Part shown: piece by piece, positions 12,659-19,999 of the stretch
How positions within the stretch are numbered: position 1 is the first letter of the stretch
Layout of the letters: each line of letters opens with the position of its first letter
Source of the DNA: an uncultured Ruminiclostridium sp.
GTDB taxonomy: Bacteria > Bacillota > Clostridia > Oscillospirales > Ruminococcaceae
Direction: 5' to 3'
DNA: 25,133 nt
Assembly (NCBI GenBank): GCA_934454635.1
Contig: CAKSFR010000024.1
Span: forward strand, 1-25,133
Position numbers and translations under genes: made by a program
Notes under the pieces: model-generated
What the model was told of the DNA's origin: nothing
What the model saw: only the letters and a program-made list of their open reading frames with translations
The model's database searches: none

Positions 12659-12761
12659 GGAAAAGCGAAATTTAAGCGCTGCCCGAAATTGCCCGATTTT
12701 ACGCTTTTTTCGGGTCAGAGCCGCGCTTTTTGCCAATATTCCGAATTTCTTTCCGCAGGTG

Positions 12762-12790
12762 TTGACATATTTCGGGAAAGGTGATATAAT
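12762..12790 (+). promoter_or_regulatory. consensus sigma-A promoter before the polyamine operon
   Basis: A perfect TTGACA (12762-12767) and a perfect TATAAT (12785-12790) are 17 bp apart. The predicted start near 12797 leaves about 314 nt before the first gene. It is the strongest promoter in the window. Confidence 0.85.
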
Positions 12791-12796
12791 ATATAT

Positions 12797-13090
12797 GTAT
12801 TGATTGCAGCTGCGATTGCATTTGATACAGACCGATCTCCGCAGGTATATTTGCGGAGATTAAGCCCTTACGGACAGGCGGGTCGGTTGCCGTGCGGTAG
12901 AATCCGCATTATTGATTGAGTTAAAAGCTCAAATTTTATAAGTTGATTACTTTATAATCAAATCATCTTGTGAAACGGTCAATAAAGAGCAATCGGGAAT
13001 GCTTCGCTCCGCATGGCGCAGGCAATCTCAGGCGCAGCTTATTCAAAAGATCGAACAGTCACGGATGAATTTCCGTGACTTTTATTTTTT
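12797..13090 (+). ncRNA. structured leader or stand-alone RNA, class not recognised
   Basis: A transcript of about 290 nt would run from the consensus promoter to an intrinsic terminator, 20 bp before the decarboxylase start. Internal hairpins are visible: 12835-12843/12852-12860 (9 bp), 12893-12897/12904-12908, 12916-12920/12928-12932 and 12943-12949/12955-12961. The two ends can pair: GATTGC occurs at 12802 and 12814 and GCAATC at 12989 and 13022, while AGCTGCG (12808-12814) matches CGCAGCT (13033-13039). No conserved open frame lies inside. I compared it by eye with T-box, SAM, lysine, cobalamin, guanidine-I, ZTP, c-di-GMP, tmRNA and RNase P signatures and found no match. It could be a regulatory leader for polyamine genes or an independent RNA such as a divergent 6S-like RNA. 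Confidence 0.55.
13057..13090 (+). terminator. intrinsic terminator at the end of the leader RNA
   Basis: AGTCACGGA (13057-13065) pairs perfectly with TCCGTGACT (13072-13080), followed by TTTATTTTTT. Placed 20 bp before the first polyamine gene, it either ends a separate RNA or acts as an attenuator. A short possible competitor for its 5' arm is CCGTG at 12890-12894. Confidence 0.75.
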
Positions 13091-13110
13091 CCGAGTTTTG
13101 GAGGAATATA

Positions 13111-14562
13111 ATGGACATTGAACGACAGAAATCCGCGCCGCTTTACGAGGCGCTTGAAGCGTTCCGCCGCAGAAGAGTCGTACCCTTCGACGTTCCGGGG
13201 CACAAGCGCGGCAGAGGCAACCCCGAGCTGGCGCAGCTCCTCGGCGAGAAGTGCGTCGGTCTTGACGTAAACTCAATGAAACCGCTGGACAACCTCTGCA
13301 ACCCCGTTTCTGTAATAAAAGAAGCGGAAGAGCTTACCGCCGAGGCGTTCGGCGCAAGTCACGCTTTTTTCATGGTTTCGGGCACGACAAGCTCGGTTCA
13401 GACAATGGTGCTTGCGGCGTGTAAGGCGGGGGAGAAGATAATCCTCCCCAGAAATGTCCACAAAAGCGTTATCAACGCCCTTATCTTATGCGGCGGTATC
13501 CCCGTTTACGTCAAGCCTGCGGTTCACCCCGACATAGGCATCGCCCTTGCAATGGAAACTGCGGAGGTCGAAAGAGCCGTGCTCGAAAACTCCGACGCTG
13601 TCGCTATTCTTGTGAACAACCCCACTTACTACGGTATCTGCTCTGACCTAAAGGCGATTACAAAGCTCGCACACGACCATAATATGCTTATGCTGGTCGA
13701 TGAAGCACACGGGACGCACCTTTATTTCGGCGAAAATCTCCCCTGCTCGGCTATGGAAGCGGGCGCGGATATGGCTGCGGTATCAATGCACAAATCGGGC
13801 GGAAGCCTTACGCAAAGCTCGCTGCTGCTGCTCGGCGAAAATATGGATCCCGGCTACGTCCGCAATATAATCAACCTGACCCAGACGACGAGCGCCTCTT
13901 ATCTGCTCCTGTCCAGCCTTGATATTTCCCGCCGAAACCTCGCGCTGCGCGGAAAGGAATCGTTTGCAAAGGTAGTAAAGCTGGCGGCGTACGCCCGCGA
14001 CGAGATAAACTGTATCGGCGGATATTACGCCTACGGCTCGGAGCTTATCGACGGCGTTACCGTTTCGGACTTCGACGTTACTAAGCTGCTTGTCTACACT
14101 CAGGGGATAGGACTCACGGGAATTGAGGTCTACGACCTGCTCCGCGACGAATACGACATTCAGATAGAGTTCGGCGATATAGGCAATATCCTCGCATATA
14201 TCTCAATAGGCGACAGGATACAGGACATTGAACGGCTTGTCGGCGCGCTTGAGGATATAAAACGTCTTTACAGCAAGGATCCGAACGGGCTTTATCTCGG
14301 CGATTACGTTCAGCCCGAGGTCGTATATTCCCCGCAGCAGTCCTTCTACGCGCAGAAAGAGTCATTGCCGCTTGAAAAAACTGCGGGAAGAATTGCGGGA
14401 GAGAGCATTATGTGCTATCCGCCGGGAATACCGATACTCGCGCCCGGCGAACGCGTTACCGAGGATATTATCCATCACATTCGGTTCGCAAAGGAAAAGG
14501 GCTGCTCGCTTCAGGGCACGTCCGACCAGAACGCCGATTATTTGCAGGTAATAAAGGAGTAA
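13111..14562 (+). CDS. speA: Orn/Lys/Arg decarboxylase, probably arginine decarboxylase
   Basis: This 483-residue PLP-dependent fold-type I decarboxylase is of the short Bacillus SpeA length. It shows DVPGHKRG near residue 27, MVSGTTSSVQ at 88, VDEAHGTH (D197 and H200 at the cofactor) and the PLP Lys K228 in SMHKSGGSLTQ. The family includes arginine, lysine and ornithine decarboxylases that cannot be told apart by motif. The agmatine deiminase and carbamoylputrescine amidase genes downstream make arginine the expected substrate and agmatine the product. The start has GGAGG seven bases upstream; the frame runs back to 13075 through the terminator but without a site. First gene of the polyamine operon. 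Confidence 0.92.
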   Translation: MDIERQKSAPLYEALEAFRRRRVVPFDVPGHKRGRGNPELAQLLGEKCVGLDVNSMKPLDNLCNPVSVIKEAEELTAEAFGASHAFFMVSGTTSSVQTMVLAACKAGEKIILPRNVHKSVINALILCGGIPVYVKPAVHPDIGIALAMETAEVERAVLENSDAVAILVNNPTYYGICSDLKAITKLAHDHNMLMLVDEAHGTHLYFGENLPCSAMEAGADMAAVSMHKSGGSLTQSSLLLLGENMDPGYVRNIINLTQTTSASYLLLSSLDISRRNLALRGKESFAKVVKLAAYARDEINCIGGYYAYGSELIDGVTVSDFDVTKLLVYTQGIGLTGIEVYDLLRDEYDIQIEFGDIGNILAYISIGDRIQDIERLVGALEDIKRLYSKDPNGLYLGDYVQPEVVYSPQQSFYAQKESLPLEKTAGRIAGESIMCYPPGIPILAPGERVTEDIIHHIRFAKEKGCSLQGTSDQNADYLQVIKE

Positions 14563-14566
14563 GCTT

Positions 14567-15436
14567 ATGGATATGTGGCTTTATACCGACAACTCGAAAA
14601 TGAGCATTCCCGTAAGCCGTCAGCTTTACAGCGCGGAAAGCGAATACCAGAAAATCGCGGTTTTTGAATCGCCGCAGTACGGCCGCCTGCTCACGCAAGA
14701 CGGGGACATTCTCTTTTCGGCTGCCGACGAATTTATCTATAACGAGATGGTCGTTCACGTCCCTATGTCGGTTCACCCGTGCGTTAAAAACGTACTTATT
14801 ATCGGCGGAGGCGACGGAGGCGTCGCCCGCGAGCTTATCGCCTATCCCGAGGTCGAAAATATCGACGTGGTAGAGCCTGACGAGGTGTTTATCAAAGTCT
14901 GCCGCGAATATTTCCCCGATATAACAAAGGCGTTCGACGACCCGAGAGTTAATATAATCGAGCGCGACGGACTGCGTTTTCTCCGCGGAAAAAGCGGCGA
15001 ATACGACCTCATCATAAACGATTCGACCGACCCTTTCGGTCACACGGAGGGACTTTTCACAAAGGAGTTTTACGGCAGCTGCTACCGCGCGCTCAAGGAC
15101 GACGGTATAATGGTATATCAGCACGGAAGCCCGTTCTTCGACGAGGACGAAACCGCTTTCCGCGCAATGCACCGCAAAGCGTACAGCACATTCCCCGTAA
15201 GCCGCGTTTATCAGGCGCATATCCCGACCTGTCCGTCGGGATACTGGATGTTCGGCTTCGCCTCGAAAAAATATCACCCGATAAACGACTTCAACCCCGA
15301 AAAATGGAACGCGCGCGGCATTAAAACGTGGTATTATACGACAAATCTCCACCTCGGCGCGTTCATGCTCCCGAAATATGTTGAGGATCTGCTGATCGAA
15401 GCGGAGAAAAATGAAATAAAGGGAAGTGCTGATTAA
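14567..15436 (+). CDS. speE: spermidine synthase-family aminopropyltransferase
   Basis: This 289-residue enzyme has the SpeE beta domain followed by a Rossmann domain with GGGDGG (80-85), VVEPDEVF, and NDSTDP with the likely catalytic D155. It would move an aminopropyl group from decarboxylated SAM to putrescine. In the usual YHEM motif His is replaced (DEFIYNEM, N59), a position near the amine site, so acceptor preference may differ. No SAM decarboxylase gene is in the window. It starts 4 bp after the decarboxylase with AAAGGAG upstream. The last four codons and stop lie within a MITE-like element, so the C-terminal tail (GSAD) is not ancestral. Confidence 0.9.
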   Translation: MDMWLYTDNSKMSIPVSRQLYSAESEYQKIAVFESPQYGRLLTQDGDILFSAADEFIYNEMVVHVPMSVHPCVKNVLIIGGGDGGVARELIAYPEVENIDVVEPDEVFIKVCREYFPDITKAFDDPRVNIIERDGLRFLRGKSGEYDLIINDSTDPFGHTEGLFTKEFYGSCYRALKDDGIMVYQHGSPFFDEDETAFRAMHRKAYSTFPVSRVYQAHIPTCPSGYWMFGFASKKYHPINDFNPEKWNARGIKTWYYTTNLHLGAFMLPKYVEDLLIEAEKNEIKGSAD

Positions 15437-15640: not shown

Positions 15641-16900
15641 ATGGCTAAACTTTTAATTATCGGCTGCGGCGGCGTAGCCTCGGTCGCAATCAGCAAATGC
15701 TGCCAGAACAGTAAGGTTTTCACCGACATTTGCATCGCGAGCCGCACGGTTTCCAAGTGCGACGCTCTCGCAGAAAAGCTCAGACCCACGACCTCCACTA
15801 ATATCACCACTGCTCAGATCGACGCGGACAACGTTCCCGCGCTGACAAAGCTTATCAAGGAGTATAAGCCCGACGCGGTGCTTAACGTTGCGCTTCCCTA
15901 TCAGGATCTTTCGATAATGGACGCGTGCCTTGCCGCGGGAGTTCACTATATCGACACCGCGAACTATGAAGCCGAAAACACCGACGATCCCGAATGGCGC
16001 GCTATCTACGAAAAGCGCTGCAAGGAGCTTGGTTTTACGGCGTATTTCGATTATTCGTGGCAGTGGGCATATCAGGAACGCTATAAGAACGCGGGACTTA
16101 CCGCGCTTCTCGGCTCGGGCTTCGACCCCGGCGTTACCAGCGTTTTCAGCGCTTACGCTCTAAAGCATTATTTCGACGAGATACACACGATAGACATTCT
16201 GGACTGCAACGGCGGCGACCACGGCTATCCGTTTGCAACAAACTTCAACCCCGAGATAAACCTCCGCGAGGTTTCCGCGCCCGGCTCGTACTGGGAGAAC
16301 GGAAAGTGGGTGGAAGTCGAAGCGATGTCGATAAAGCGCGAATATGACTTTGCGCAGGTCGGCAAAAAGGATATGTACCTGCTCCACCATGAGGAAATCG
16401 AATCACTCGCGAAAAATATCCCCGGAATAAAGCGAATCCGCTTCTTTATGACATTCGGTCAGAGCTATCTCACACACATGAAGTGCCTCGAAAACGTCGG
16501 TATGCTTTCAACGACGCCTATCGATTTTAACGGTACCCAGATAGTTCCGATACAGTTTTTAAAGGCGCTTCTGCCCGATCCCGCTTCGCTCGGTCCGAGA
16601 ACTGTCGGAAAGACGAATATCGGCTGCATTTTCAAGGGCGTTAAGGACGGAAAGGAAAAGACGGTTTATATCTACAACGTCTGCGACCATCAGGAATGCT
16701 ACAAGGAAGTCGGAAGTCAGGCGATATCCTACACAACGGGCGTTCCCGCAATGATAGGCGCAATGCTCGTTGCGGACGGAACATGGCGCAAGCCGGGCGT
16801 ATTCAACCTCGAAGAATTTGACCCCGACCCGTTTATGGACGCGCTCAACAAGTGGGGACTTCCGTGGGTAGTCGAAGAAAACCCCGTTATGGTAGACTGA
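15641..16900 (+). CDS. carboxy(nor)spermidine dehydrogenase (CASDH), saccharopine dehydrogenase family
   Basis: This 419-residue enzyme has an N-terminal NAD(P)-binding Rossmann motif IIGCGGVASVAISKC and the family's LNVALPYQDLSIMDACLAAGVHYIDTANYE and GLTALLGSGFDPGVTSVFSAYA segments. It reductively condenses aspartate semialdehyde with a diamine: putrescine gives carboxyspermidine, diaminopropane gives carboxynorspermidine. Putrescine is expected here because the operon makes it, though agmatine as acceptor, as reported for cyanobacterial homologues, is possible. GAAAGGA lies ten bases before the ATG. The decarboxylase that completes the step follows after one base. Confidence 0.92.
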   Translation: MAKLLIIGCGGVASVAISKCCQNSKVFTDICIASRTVSKCDALAEKLRPTTSTNITTAQIDADNVPALTKLIKEYKPDAVLNVALPYQDLSIMDACLAAGVHYIDTANYEAENTDDPEWRAIYEKRCKELGFTAYFDYSWQWAYQERYKNAGLTALLGSGFDPGVTSVFSAYALKHYFDEIHTIDILDCNGGDHGYPFATNFNPEINLREVSAPGSYWENGKWVEVEAMSIKREYDFAQVGKKDMYLLHHEEIESLAKNIPGIKRIRFFMTFGQSYLTHMKCLENVGMLSTTPIDFNGTQIVPIQFLKALLPDPASLGPRTVGKTNIGCIFKGVKDGKEKTVYIYNVCDHQECYKEVGSQAISYTTGVPAMIGAMLVADGTWRKPGVFNLEEFDPDPFMDALNKWGLPWVVEENPVMVD

Positions 16901-16901
16901 G

Positions 16902-18023
16902 ATGAGATTTGAAGAGCTACCTACCCCCTGCTATGTCATCGACAAGGGCAGGCTTATAAAAAACCTTGAAATTCTTAAAAAAGTACAGGAGGATACGGGC
17001 TGCCGTATCCTTCTTGCGCAAAAGGCTTTTTCGGCGTATTCGCTTTATCCGCTTATAGGGAAATATCTCTGCGGAACGACGGCGAGCGGACTTTTTGAAG
17101 CGAAGCTCGGCCACGAAGAAATGGGCGGCGAAACGCATATCTTCGCCCCCGCATTTAAAGACGCGGATTTTGACGAGATAGCGTCGATATGCGGGCATAT
17201 CTCGTTCAATTCCTTTGTGCAGCTTGAAAAATACCGTTCGCGCTGCAAAAATATGAGCGTCGGCATACGCATTAACCCCGAATGCTCAACGCAGGGCGAC
17301 CACGCGATATACGACCCGTGCGCGGCGGGAAGCAGACTTGGCGTAACGCTTGAGAATTTTCGCGAGGACTTGCTCGACGAAGTTGAGGGACTTCATTTCC
17401 ACACGCTCTGCGAGCAAAATTCCGACGCGCTTGCGATAACGCTTGAAGCTGTCGAAGAAAAATTCGGGAAATATCTCGGGCGCATGAAGTGGCTCAACAT
17501 GGGCGGCGGACATCACATAACCCGCGCGGATTACGACATTCCGCTGCTTGAAAAGTGCATAAGAAAAATGTCCGAAAAATACGGGCTTACCGTTTATCTT
17601 GAGCCGGGCGAGGCTGTCGCGCTCAACGCGGGTTATCTCACCGCCGAGGTTCTGGACATTGTCGAAAACGGCGGCGTAAAAACGCTTATTCTCGACGCTT
17701 CGGCTGCGTGCCATATGCCAGACGTGCTTGAAATGCCGTACCGCCCGCCGCTTCGCGGTTCGGGAGAAGCGGGCGAAAAGCCGTATACCTACCGCCTTTC
17801 CTCATACACCTGCCTAGCGGGCGACATTATCGGCGATTATTCGTTCGACGAACCCGTAAAGGTGGGCGACAGGCTCTGCTTCGAGGATATGGCTATCTAT
17901 TCAATGGTGAAAAACAACACCTTTAACGGCATTCCGCTCCCGTCGATAGCAGTTATGGACGAGGACGGAAGCTGCGAAGTGATAAAAAGCTTCGGCTACA
18001 ACGACTTTAAATCGAGGCTGTAA
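16902..18023 (+). CDS. nspC: carboxy(nor)spermidine decarboxylase (CASDC)
   Basis: This 373-residue PLP enzyme is of the alanine racemase fold (type III): PTPCYVIDKGRL at the N-terminus, PLP Lys K41 in LAQKAFS, the GLHFHTLCEQNSDAL segment, LNMGGGHHITRADYD, EPGEAV for phosphate binding, and the late CHMPDVLEMPYRPPL with the conserved Cys from the partner subunit. It removes CO2 from carboxyspermidine to give spermidine. Start and stop fit the family length. It begins one base after the dehydrogenase stop and ends one base before agmatine deiminase, so translation is probably coupled along the row. Confidence 0.94.
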   Translation: MRFEELPTPCYVIDKGRLIKNLEILKKVQEDTGCRILLAQKAFSAYSLYPLIGKYLCGTTASGLFEAKLGHEEMGGETHIFAPAFKDADFDEIASICGHISFNSFVQLEKYRSRCKNMSVGIRINPECSTQGDHAIYDPCAAGSRLGVTLENFREDLLDEVEGLHFHTLCEQNSDALAITLEAVEEKFGKYLGRMKWLNMGGGHHITRADYDIPLLEKCIRKMSEKYGLTVYLEPGEAVALNAGYLTAEVLDIVENGGVKTLILDASAACHMPDVLEMPYRPPLRGSGEAGEKPYTYRLSSYTCLAGDIIGDYSFDEPVKVGDRLCFEDMAIYSMVKNNTFNGIPLPSIAVMDEDGSCEVIKSFGYNDFKSRL

Positions 18024-18024
18024 A

Positions 18025-19122
18025 ATGGAACTTACAACACCCGCAAAAAACGGCTTTTTCATGCCGGGAGAATTTGGAGAACACGACGGCTGCATCATGA
18101 TATGGCCCGAACGCCCCGGCTCGTGGGCATACGGCGCGGCTGCCGCACGAAAGGCTTTCGCCGAAATTGCCGCTGCGATCTCCGAAAGCGAAAGCGTATA
18201 TATGCTCGTAAACGACCGCACCGCCGAGAGCGCGCGGCAGCTTCTCCCCGAAAAGATACGCCTTATAAATATCGACACCGACGACGCATGGGCGCGGGAT
18301 ATGTGTCCGACCTTTGTGAAAAACCGTTTTGGGGAAATCCGCGGCGTTGAGTGGGAATTTAACGCTTGGGGCGGAGATTTCGACGGGCTGTACAAGAGCT
18401 GGGACAAGGACAATGCCGCGGCGCGTAAATTCTGCCGCGAGGTCGGGTACGAATGCTATAACGCAAAGCCTTTCGTGCTTGAGGGCGGTTCGGTGCATTC
18501 CGACGGACAGGGGACGGTAATAACGACCGAAGCCTGCCTGCTCAGCAAGGGGCGCAACCCGAATCTGACAAAAAAGCAGATCGAAGAAAAGCTGCGCGAA
18601 TATCTCGGCGCGGAAAAGGTGATTTGGCTTCCGCGCGGGATCTACAACGATGAAACAAACGAACACGTCGATAACGTCTGCGCGTTCGTGCGCCCCGCAG
18701 AGGTCGTTCTCGCGTGGACGGACGACGAAAACGACCCGCAGTACGAACTGAGCAAAGCGAGCCTTGACCTTCTCGAAAGCGAAACCGACGCGCGCGGGAG
18801 AAAATTTACCGTTCACAAGCTGCTTATCCCGAAAAAGTCAGTCTGCGTGACCGAAAAAGACCTTTTGGGTCTTGAATTTGAGGACGGAGAGGATATGCGC
18901 GAAGTCGGCGAACGGCTCGCGGCAAGCTATGCGAACTTCTATATCTCGAACGGCGCGGTTATCCTGCCAGTTTTCGGCGACGAAAACGACGAAAAGGCGG
19001 TCGCGCTTATGCAGCGGCTGTTCCCCGAAAGAAAGGTAGTCCCGATATTCGCGCGCGATATAATAATCGGCGGCGGGAACATACACTGCATAACCCAGCA
19101 GATACCGAAAGGAGCAAAATAA
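18025..19122 (+). CDS. aguA: agmatine deiminase
   Basis: This 365-residue enzyme belongs to the guanidino-group-modifying (pentein) family. It has MPGEFGEHDGCIMIWPERPGSW at the N-terminus, DDAWARDMCPTFV, LEGGSVHSDGQGT, and the C-terminal GGGNIHCITQQIP with the nucleophile C355. It converts agmatine to N-carbamoylputrescine and ammonia. It lies between nspC and aguB with one-base gaps on both sides. A deiminase acting on aminopropylagmatine would look the same, so the order of pathway steps is not fixed by this gene. Confidence 0.95.
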   Translation: MELTTPAKNGFFMPGEFGEHDGCIMIWPERPGSWAYGAAAARKAFAEIAAAISESESVYMLVNDRTAESARQLLPEKIRLINIDTDDAWARDMCPTFVKNRFGEIRGVEWEFNAWGGDFDGLYKSWDKDNAAARKFCREVGYECYNAKPFVLEGGSVHSDGQGTVITTEACLLSKGRNPNLTKKQIEEKLREYLGAEKVIWLPRGIYNDETNEHVDNVCAFVRPAEVVLAWTDDENDPQYELSKASLDLLESETDARGRKFTVHKLLIPKKSVCVTEKDLLGLEFEDGEDMREVGERLAASYANFYISNGAVILPVFGDENDEKAVALMQRLFPERKVVPIFARDIIIGGGNIHCITQQIPKGAK

Positions 19123-19123
19123 A

Positions 19124-19999
19124 ATGAGAAAAGTTACTGTTGCGGCGGTGCAGATGAAATGCTCCGCAGAACGCGCGGAAAATATAGAAAAAGCCGTGGA
19201 AATGGCTGAAAAGGCGGCGGCTTCGGGCGCGAACGTGATACTTCTCCCCGAGCTTTTCGAGCGGCCGTATTTTTGTCAGGAGCGCCGCTACGAATACTAC
19301 GATTACGCCGAAAAAACCGAGGAAAATGCGGCGGTAAAGCGCTTTCGCGAAACCGCGAAAAAGCTCGGCGCGGTTATCCCCGTAAGCTTTTACGAACGCG
19401 CGGGAAACTGCCTGTACAATTCGATAGCCGTTATCGACGCGGACGGCTCGCTTCTCGGAGTTTACCGCAAAACGCATATTCCCGACGACCATTATTATCA
19501 GGAAAAATTTTACTTCTCGCCCGGAAATACGGGCTTTAAGGTGTGGGACACCGCTTTCGGAAAAATCGGGATAGGTATCTGCTGGGATCAGTGGTTTCCC
19601 GAAACGGCGCGCTGTCTTGCGATAAACGGCGCGGAAATGCTGCTTTATCCTACCGCGATAGGGAGCGAACCTATTCTCGACTGCGACAGCGCGGGGCACT
19701 GGCGGCGCACCATGCAGGGACATTCGGCAGCCAACGTTATCCCCGTTATAGCCGCGAACCGTATCGGAACGGAAAGCGTTGAGCCGTGCGCCGAAAACGG
19801 CGGTCAGCGCTCAGCTCTGAGATTCTACGGCTCGTCGTTCATCACCGACGCGACAGGCGACGTTATTGCCGACGCGGGGCGCGACGAAGAAGCCGTTATT
19901 TCGGCGGGATTTGACCTTGACGAAATTAACGCCGAACGGCTCAACTGGGGGCTTTTCCGCGACAGACGGCCCGAGTGCTACGGTGATATTTGCAGATAA
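19124..19999 (+). CDS. aguB: N-carbamoylputrescine amidase
   Basis: This 291-residue nitrilase-superfamily amidase has the catalytic triad E43 (LLPELFE), K116 (YRKTHIPDD) and C153 (GICWDQWFPE). The segments around them match the AguB/plant NLP1 branch: DDHYYQEKFYFSPGNTGF and GSEPILDCDSAGHWRRTMQGHSA. It releases putrescine, CO2 and ammonia. AAAGGAG lies upstream inside the end of aguA. It is the last clear enzyme of the pathway; a hairpin without a T-run follows. Confidence 0.95.
   Translation: MRKVTVAAVQMKCSAERAENIEKAVEMAEKAAASGANVILLPELFERPYFCQERRYEYYDYAEKTEENAAVKRFRETAKKLGAVIPVSFYERAGNCLYNSIAVIDADGSLLGVYRKTHIPDDHYYQEKFYFSPGNTGFKVWDTAFGKIGIGICWDQWFPETARCLAINGAEMLLYPTAIGSEPILDCDSAGHWRRTMQGHSAANVIPVIAANRIGTESVEPCAENGGQRSALRFYGSSFITDATGDVIADAGRDEEAVISAGFDLDEINAERLNWGLFRDRRPECYGDICR

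Follow-up and report, generated by a model that had tools for sequence, protein, structure and literature searches.

We propose that the polyamine operon encoded on a 25,133-nucleotide stretch of DNA from an uncultured Ruminiclostridium sp. (the window) is probably preceded by a riboswitch-type, cis-acting transcription attenuator in its 5' leader, the core of which is most likely a polyamine sensor, spermidine being the first choice, and thereby brings about feedback repression. The elements of the leader and of the operon behind it are as follows.

12762..12790, + strand: promoter with TTGACA, a 17-nt spacer and an extended -10 element TATAAT, putatively recognised by RNA polymerase
12797..13090, + strand: whole leader RNA, from the predicted start to the U-rich tail of the terminator, with an organisation common to relatives
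12808..12819, + strand: 5' strand of the terminal stem P0/P1, AGCTGCGATTGC, paired with 12989-12994 and 13033-13039 in the MFE structure
12828..12990, + strand: conserved core
12829..12893, + strand: match to Rfam RF02440 (SpF59_sRNA, ldcC RNA), covering stems P2 and P2a
12864..12879, + strand: hairpin P2b with the conserved loop TACGGACA; its middle pair is GC in 23 of 48 sequences and CG in 17
12894..12907, + strand: variable hairpin P3a; 72.6% of cells paired, 4 of 4 pairs changing on both sides
12909..12985, + strand: P3 (12909-12917 with 12977-12985), enclosing P4, P5 and P6; 97.4% of cells paired, nearly invariant
12918..12930, + strand: hairpin P4, GAG-TTAAAAG-CTC; one pair AU in 41, GC in 6 and CG in 1 of 48
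12934..12942, + strand: 5' strand of P5, TTTTATAAG, pairing with CTTGTGAAA at 12967-12975; 95.0% of cells paired, near-invariant
12945..12959, + strand: hairpin P6, GATTACTTTATAATC; one pair GC in 21, AU in 20 and UA in 2 of 48
12963..12973, + strand: switch strand TCATCTTGTGA, overlapping the 3' strand of P5; its antiterminator partner is 13059-13068
13057..13090, + strand: intrinsic terminator, stem 13057-13080 and U-rich tail
13111..14562, + strand: Orn/Lys/Arg-type decarboxylase (speA/ldcC-like), first gene of the operon
14567..15436, + strand: speE (NCBIfam), from which the further operon genes extend to 19999
15641..16900, + strand: carboxynorspermidine-synthase homologue (NCBIfam match below the equivalog cut-off, 421 of 800 bits)
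16902..18023, + strand: nspC (NCBIfam)
18025..19122, + strand: aguA (NCBIfam)
19124..19999, + strand: aguB (NCBIfam)

The promoter carries TTGACA at 12762-12767 and TATAAT at 12785-12790 with TG in front and matches the consensus at 12 of 12 positions; as read off from its position, transcription would start near 12797. The resulting 294-nt leader folds at -103 kcal/mol compared with -74.5 (sd 4.7) kcal/mol for dinucleotide shuffles (z = -6.09, none of 200 shuffles as low), and 20 bp separate the end of the terminator at 13090 from the ATG of the decarboxylase gene at 13111. GATTGC is present at 12802 and 12814, GCAATC at 12989 and 13022, AGCTGCG at 12808-12814 and CGCAGCT at 13033-13039. An initial annotation of this DNA had described a perfect consensus promoter, about 290 nt of hairpin-rich sequence, a strong terminator 20 bp ahead of the decarboxylase gene and these repeat copies, and all of this is borne out, including every repeat position. 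The decarboxylase itself has no named NCBIfam family above the cut-off among the 25 matches listed. That it is an arginine decarboxylase is plausible, as aguA and aguB are encoded in the same operon.

The initial annotation knew of no class into which the RNA would fit and had called for a search against Rfam. This search returned RF02440, which matches 12829-12893 with 46.3 bits, above its gathering score of 37.2, and over model positions 1-54 of 54, so that the 5' part of the leader does belong to a known class. The RNA is therefore not unrecognised in these 54 positions, which Rfam holds as an sRNA (type Gene; sRNA), but it is so in the rest of the conserved unit: RF02440 consists of two stems, P2 and P2a, whereas the conserved unit in the window comprises at least 164 positions plus the terminal stem and the attenuator. 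Among the 50 genomes behind the best speA loci, 28 have an RF02440 match, 25 of them over its cut-off.

For the comparison with relatives, genome contigs were searched for the decarboxylase and the best 80 loci of 587 relatives were kept. Upstream of speA, long common blocks extend far beyond RF02440. From the window, 23 loci of this speA scan and 24 loci of the RF02440 searches (n=48) we built alignment A1 and the covariance model R1, which has 164 positions and 47 pairs. R1 matches the window end to end at 12828-12990 (137.4 bits, E 2.1e-38), the window being one of the 48 model sequences. A covariance search upstream of speA homologues had also been suggested in the initial annotation, and R1 was found at 59 of the 80 loci (best 80 of 587), 23 of which were model sequences; the remaining 21 gave no match. 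The closest SpeA relatives among the matches listed (L002 and L003) have no such leader and no R1 match, and two R1-negative loci (L007 and L041) have less than 150 nt of upstream sequence.

When pairing was scored on the hand-derived structure of A1 (n=48), standard pairs occupied 88.6% of the pair cells as opposed to 34-45% with the partners slid. Covariation, the absence of which in relatives had been named as an argument against the RNA, is present, with a score of 0.189 versus 0.102 in shuffled alignments (0 of 500 shuffles reach it). The number of pairs with two-sided changes shows no excess (16 versus 14.6 in shuffles, reached by 143 of 500); these changes are located in P2, P2a, P2b, P3a, P4, P6 and P7, the last of which is paired in just 51.5% of cells. 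P3 and P5 receive no support from covariation because they are nearly invariant. Taken together, the leader contains a conserved, structured, aptamer-like core of approximately 160 nt across species, as is characteristic of riboswitches, with many invariant residues and with conservation at the level of the bases. Its conserved loops include TACGGACA, TGCCG and TTAAAAG.

Several speA genes are preceded by shortened or different leaders. In five loci (L024, L030, L048, L053 and L059) shortened versions that lack most of P4-P6 are located before speA together with a terminator-like hairpin; these are apparently simplified switches. Two R1-negative loci from uncultured Ruminococcus and Oscillospiraceae records (L070 and L075) share another conserved leader upstream of speA, GGCAATCTGCAT ... 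GGTACGATGGCT.CGTGCAGGGTGC, and L078 and L079 a third, different long one; neither leader has an Rfam match at the gathering score. A search of 12 of the 21 R1-negative loci and of L205 against Rfam at gathering scores gave a single match, a GA-cis RNA at L044:7923-8004.

The ends of the RNA were thought from the outset to close on themselves, and relatives support this. The landmarks required were present in 72 of the 83 usable leaders, and 45 were non-redundant; the duplexes between their own 5' and 3' flanks average -22.8 kcal/mol, which none of 20,000 permutations reached, compared with -17.9 kcal/mol for flanks swapped between species, in a test that, like the antiterminator test below, ignores phylogeny. 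A possible local hairpin, AGAGT/ACTCT, would share bases with the P0/P1 3' strand.

In the window, the switch strand TCATCTTGTGA (12963-12973) can form 10 bp, with one bulged base, with TCACGGATGA (13059-13068), which is the 5' arm of the terminator, and the predicted energy of this antiterminator duplex is -10.9 kcal/mol. From 119 distinct leaders, 83 with an CTTGTGAA-type element and a terminator were retained, while in the other 36 the finder used did not detect the element or the terminator; 56 were non-redundant. Within these 56, the terminator 5' arm and the P5 3' strand region of the same leader pair with -13.86 kcal/mol, whereas permuted combinations reach -9.81 (sd 0.31) kcal/mol (0 of 20,000), and a control with the terminator 3' arm gives -5.37 kcal/mol. 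The P5 3' strand region is unmatched by any other scanned leader segment in 42 of the 56. A smaller, earlier set (n=47) had given -13.66 versus -9.65 kcal/mol, with the CTTGTG element as the best site in 34 of 47. Five or six pair types are seen at every switch-strand position from -9 to -4; as the duplex program chose these pairs, the evidence for co-variation is the swap test. The RNA thus possesses an expression platform of mutually exclusive structures, namely P5, antiterminator and terminator, which is a further hallmark of riboswitches. With this, the idea that the RNA chooses between alternative pairings holds for one pairing, which co-varies, that of the P5 3' strand with the terminator 5' arm; a choice between the GATTGC and GCAATC copies, which the initial annotation had in mind, is not the supported one and was discarded as the main switch.

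The two states were compared by constrained folding of 79 of the 83 leaders, using sequence from 190 nt ahead of the element. When the terminator is part of the transcript, the state that combines it with P5 is the more stable one in 78 of 79. If the transcript stops at the loop of the terminator, P5 comes out ahead of the antiterminator in 63 of the 79 leaders, with a median advantage of 3.7 kcal/mol over all 79 and of 3.8 kcal/mol in the window. Thermodynamics alone therefore favours OFF, which may be the default, and co-transcriptional kinetics would have to decide.

Genome-wide searches (E up to 0.001) started from the groups of an uncultured Clostridia bacterium record (G003) and a Streptococcus pneumoniae record (G033). 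RF02440 was found in 41 of the 391 genomes searched in the class of G003, 40 of them exceeding the cut-off, and in 4 of 198 genomes from the order of G033, where 3 exceeded it; R1 was found in 40 of 291 genomes of the former's class and in 21 of 398 genomes of the latter's phylum; G003, G033 and G049 are not independent here, as they had already been reached via the speA scan. In the phylum of G001 (found via L002, a Candidatus Avidesulfovibrio record), R1 matched none of 198 genomes in a search that had no positive control, and phage records contained no similar DNA. A scan of viral contigs yielded one locus with a synthase relative, which is among the sources for R1 matching and for the antiterminator swap test. 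As judged from these matches, the RNA occurs in Clostridia and streptococci and elsewhere in the phylum to which they belong.

The union of the RF02440 and R1 searches amounts to 69 genomes, and in 66 of them the nearest matched downstream ORF on the same strand is a polyamine gene: speA in 23, speD (followed by speA) in 21, potA in 13 and, in the remaining 9, a carboxynorspermidine-synthase homologue. The NCBIfam cut-offs were passed by one example each of PotA and SpeD; the other downstream genes were assigned by BLAST to these examples and to the proteins of the window. Where measured, 12-373 nt lie between the RNA match and the first possible start codon of the polyamine ORF, and in three genomes (G141, G163 and G435) a short unmatched ORF begins before it. 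The RNA is hence consistently tied to one metabolic pathway, as riboswitches are. In G618 (L204/L141) the RNA is kept and a transposase-like and then an adenosine deaminase-like ORF stand in place of the polyamine operon, while in G576 (L205/L142) an M28-type peptidase ORF follows a divergent RF02440-like RNA, whose 34.5 bits fall short of the gathering score; the ORF labels in these two genomes come from reading the translations and are not database assignments. P3 appears to be compensated in L205. A third genome, G297, has a partial, sub-cut-off match at the end of a contig.

We suggest the following mechanism. RNA polymerase would start near 12797 and produce the large conserved core, which would be closed by the terminal stem P0/P1. 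Once the core is folded, P5 would hold TCATCTTGTGA, the terminator at 13057-13090 could form and transcription would stop before the decarboxylase gene (OFF). If the core is not stabilised, TCATCTTGTGA would instead pair with the 5' arm of the terminator, and the polymerase would read through into the operon (ON). Feedback repression of the polyamine genes would thus result from a polyamine that binds the core directly and stabilises it. A polyamine is the most likely signal, since the same RNA precedes genes for polyamine synthesis and for import, and this gene set, with two routes of spermidine synthesis and polyamine import, might point to spermidine.

The antiterminator logic and the gene association are equally compatible with an attenuator in which a protein, or a protein-polyamine complex, takes the place of the small molecule in recognising the core. 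Leaders of the PyrR type are a known precedent, described in PMC6296669. A core of about 160 nt with so many invariant residues is large for a simple protein site, and we regard the protein-read core as rather unlikely. The initial annotation had listed arginine, agmatine and a polyamine as possible signals. Arginine, agmatine or another intermediate would suit the window, where the operon begins with a decarboxylase and has aguA and aguB further on; they explain poorly why the RNA also precedes potA (13 of 69), speD (21 of 69) and the carboxynorspermidine-synthase homologues, for which spermidine or putrescine would be better explanations. A polyamine is accordingly favoured, and we consider an intermediate as the signal improbable.

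In L036, the pneumococcal locus, the R1 match sets in about 33 nt downstream of the predicted start, and about 327 nt separate this start from the terminator. The adjacent gene SP0916 is presumably a speA homologue, which fits the operon in L036. Two transcripts, SN20 and F59, are described as sRNA on the + strand between SP0915 and SP0916 in PMC2887815 and PMC3395615; SN20 is 318 nt in the table given there, close to our value for L036, with coordinates 869478-869791 that span 314, and F59 is 82 nt and begins 32 nt into SN20, much as R1 does in L036. From a shared motif, SN20 was suggested to be FMN-switch-like (PMC2887815, PMC3395615, PMC4387999), and a review table places F59/SN20 under lung (PMC4387999). 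Whereas these papers speak of an sRNA, we read the same place as a cis-acting leader, and the pneumococcal "sRNA" SN20/F59 would be its terminated product.

The discrete pneumococcal transcript, the Rfam type of RF02440 and G618, which keeps the RNA next to a transposase-like ORF, speak for a stand-alone, trans-acting small RNA encoded upstream of the operon by chance. Chance placement hardly accounts for an RNA on the same strand 12-373 nt ahead of a polyamine-gene ORF in 66 of 69 genomes, or for a terminator arm that co-varies with the core, and on these two grounds we consider the stand-alone RNA very improbable. Of the two possibilities that the initial annotation had left side by side, the switchable leader is thus retained, on account of the relatives, the covariation, the gene association and the antiterminator, and the stand-alone RNA is disfavoured. 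We reject as barely credible a ribosome-dependent attenuator in which an upstream peptide ORF stalls on a polyamine or an amino acid: short ORFs with a start and an SD-like sequence occur in 74 of 83 leaders, a count for a loose pattern that is uninformative by itself as it has no computed chance level, while a reading frame running through the P3-P5 core without a stop exists in 3 of 83 leaders and is absent from 80 of 83, and it is the bases that are conserved.

Returning to the proposed polyamine-sensing leader, a spermidine riboswitch that is a SAM-I variant has been published (PMC10853860). As described there, it likewise precedes polyamine genes, among them ldcC, speE and speB, and it is an OFF switch that works by transcription termination, as we propose for the leader in the window. 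It has the four-stem SAM-I architecture, from which the core of the window RNA differs, being larger. No SAM-family match was obtained in the window at the gathering score, nor at E up to 1 within 12750-13120. The RNA thus shows neither the four-stem aptamer nor a family match and was rejected as a member of the SAM-I-variant class. The odc1 and potE candidate motifs (PMC8632094) are also RNA elements ahead of polyamine genes; in that account the odc1 motif is alphaproteobacterial and contains a uORF, unlike the window RNA, and the potE motif comes from Veillonella and environmental samples. In the CC-licensed part of PubMed Central, a partial collection, we found neither a description of this RNA as a riboswitch nor the name "ldcC RNA", and SpF59 turned up in just two entries, both apparently on other subjects. 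A term search of the main texts found no such leader named in PMC6296669, PMC6212727, PMC11109978, PMC8632094, PMC10043782, PMC9971707 or PMC10942264.

We lean, with some reserve, towards a second natural class of polyamine (spermidine) riboswitches, structurally unrelated to the first and present in Clostridia, streptococci and others in the phylum, the terminated product of which would be the pneumococcal sRNA SpF59. The RNA is a complete, testable candidate, for which the core boundaries, the controlled genes, the competing helices and the mutations to make can all be named. If our reading is true, a catalogued sRNA becomes a fragment of a leader, and the switch would reveal how polyamine levels are set in many gut bacteria and streptococci.
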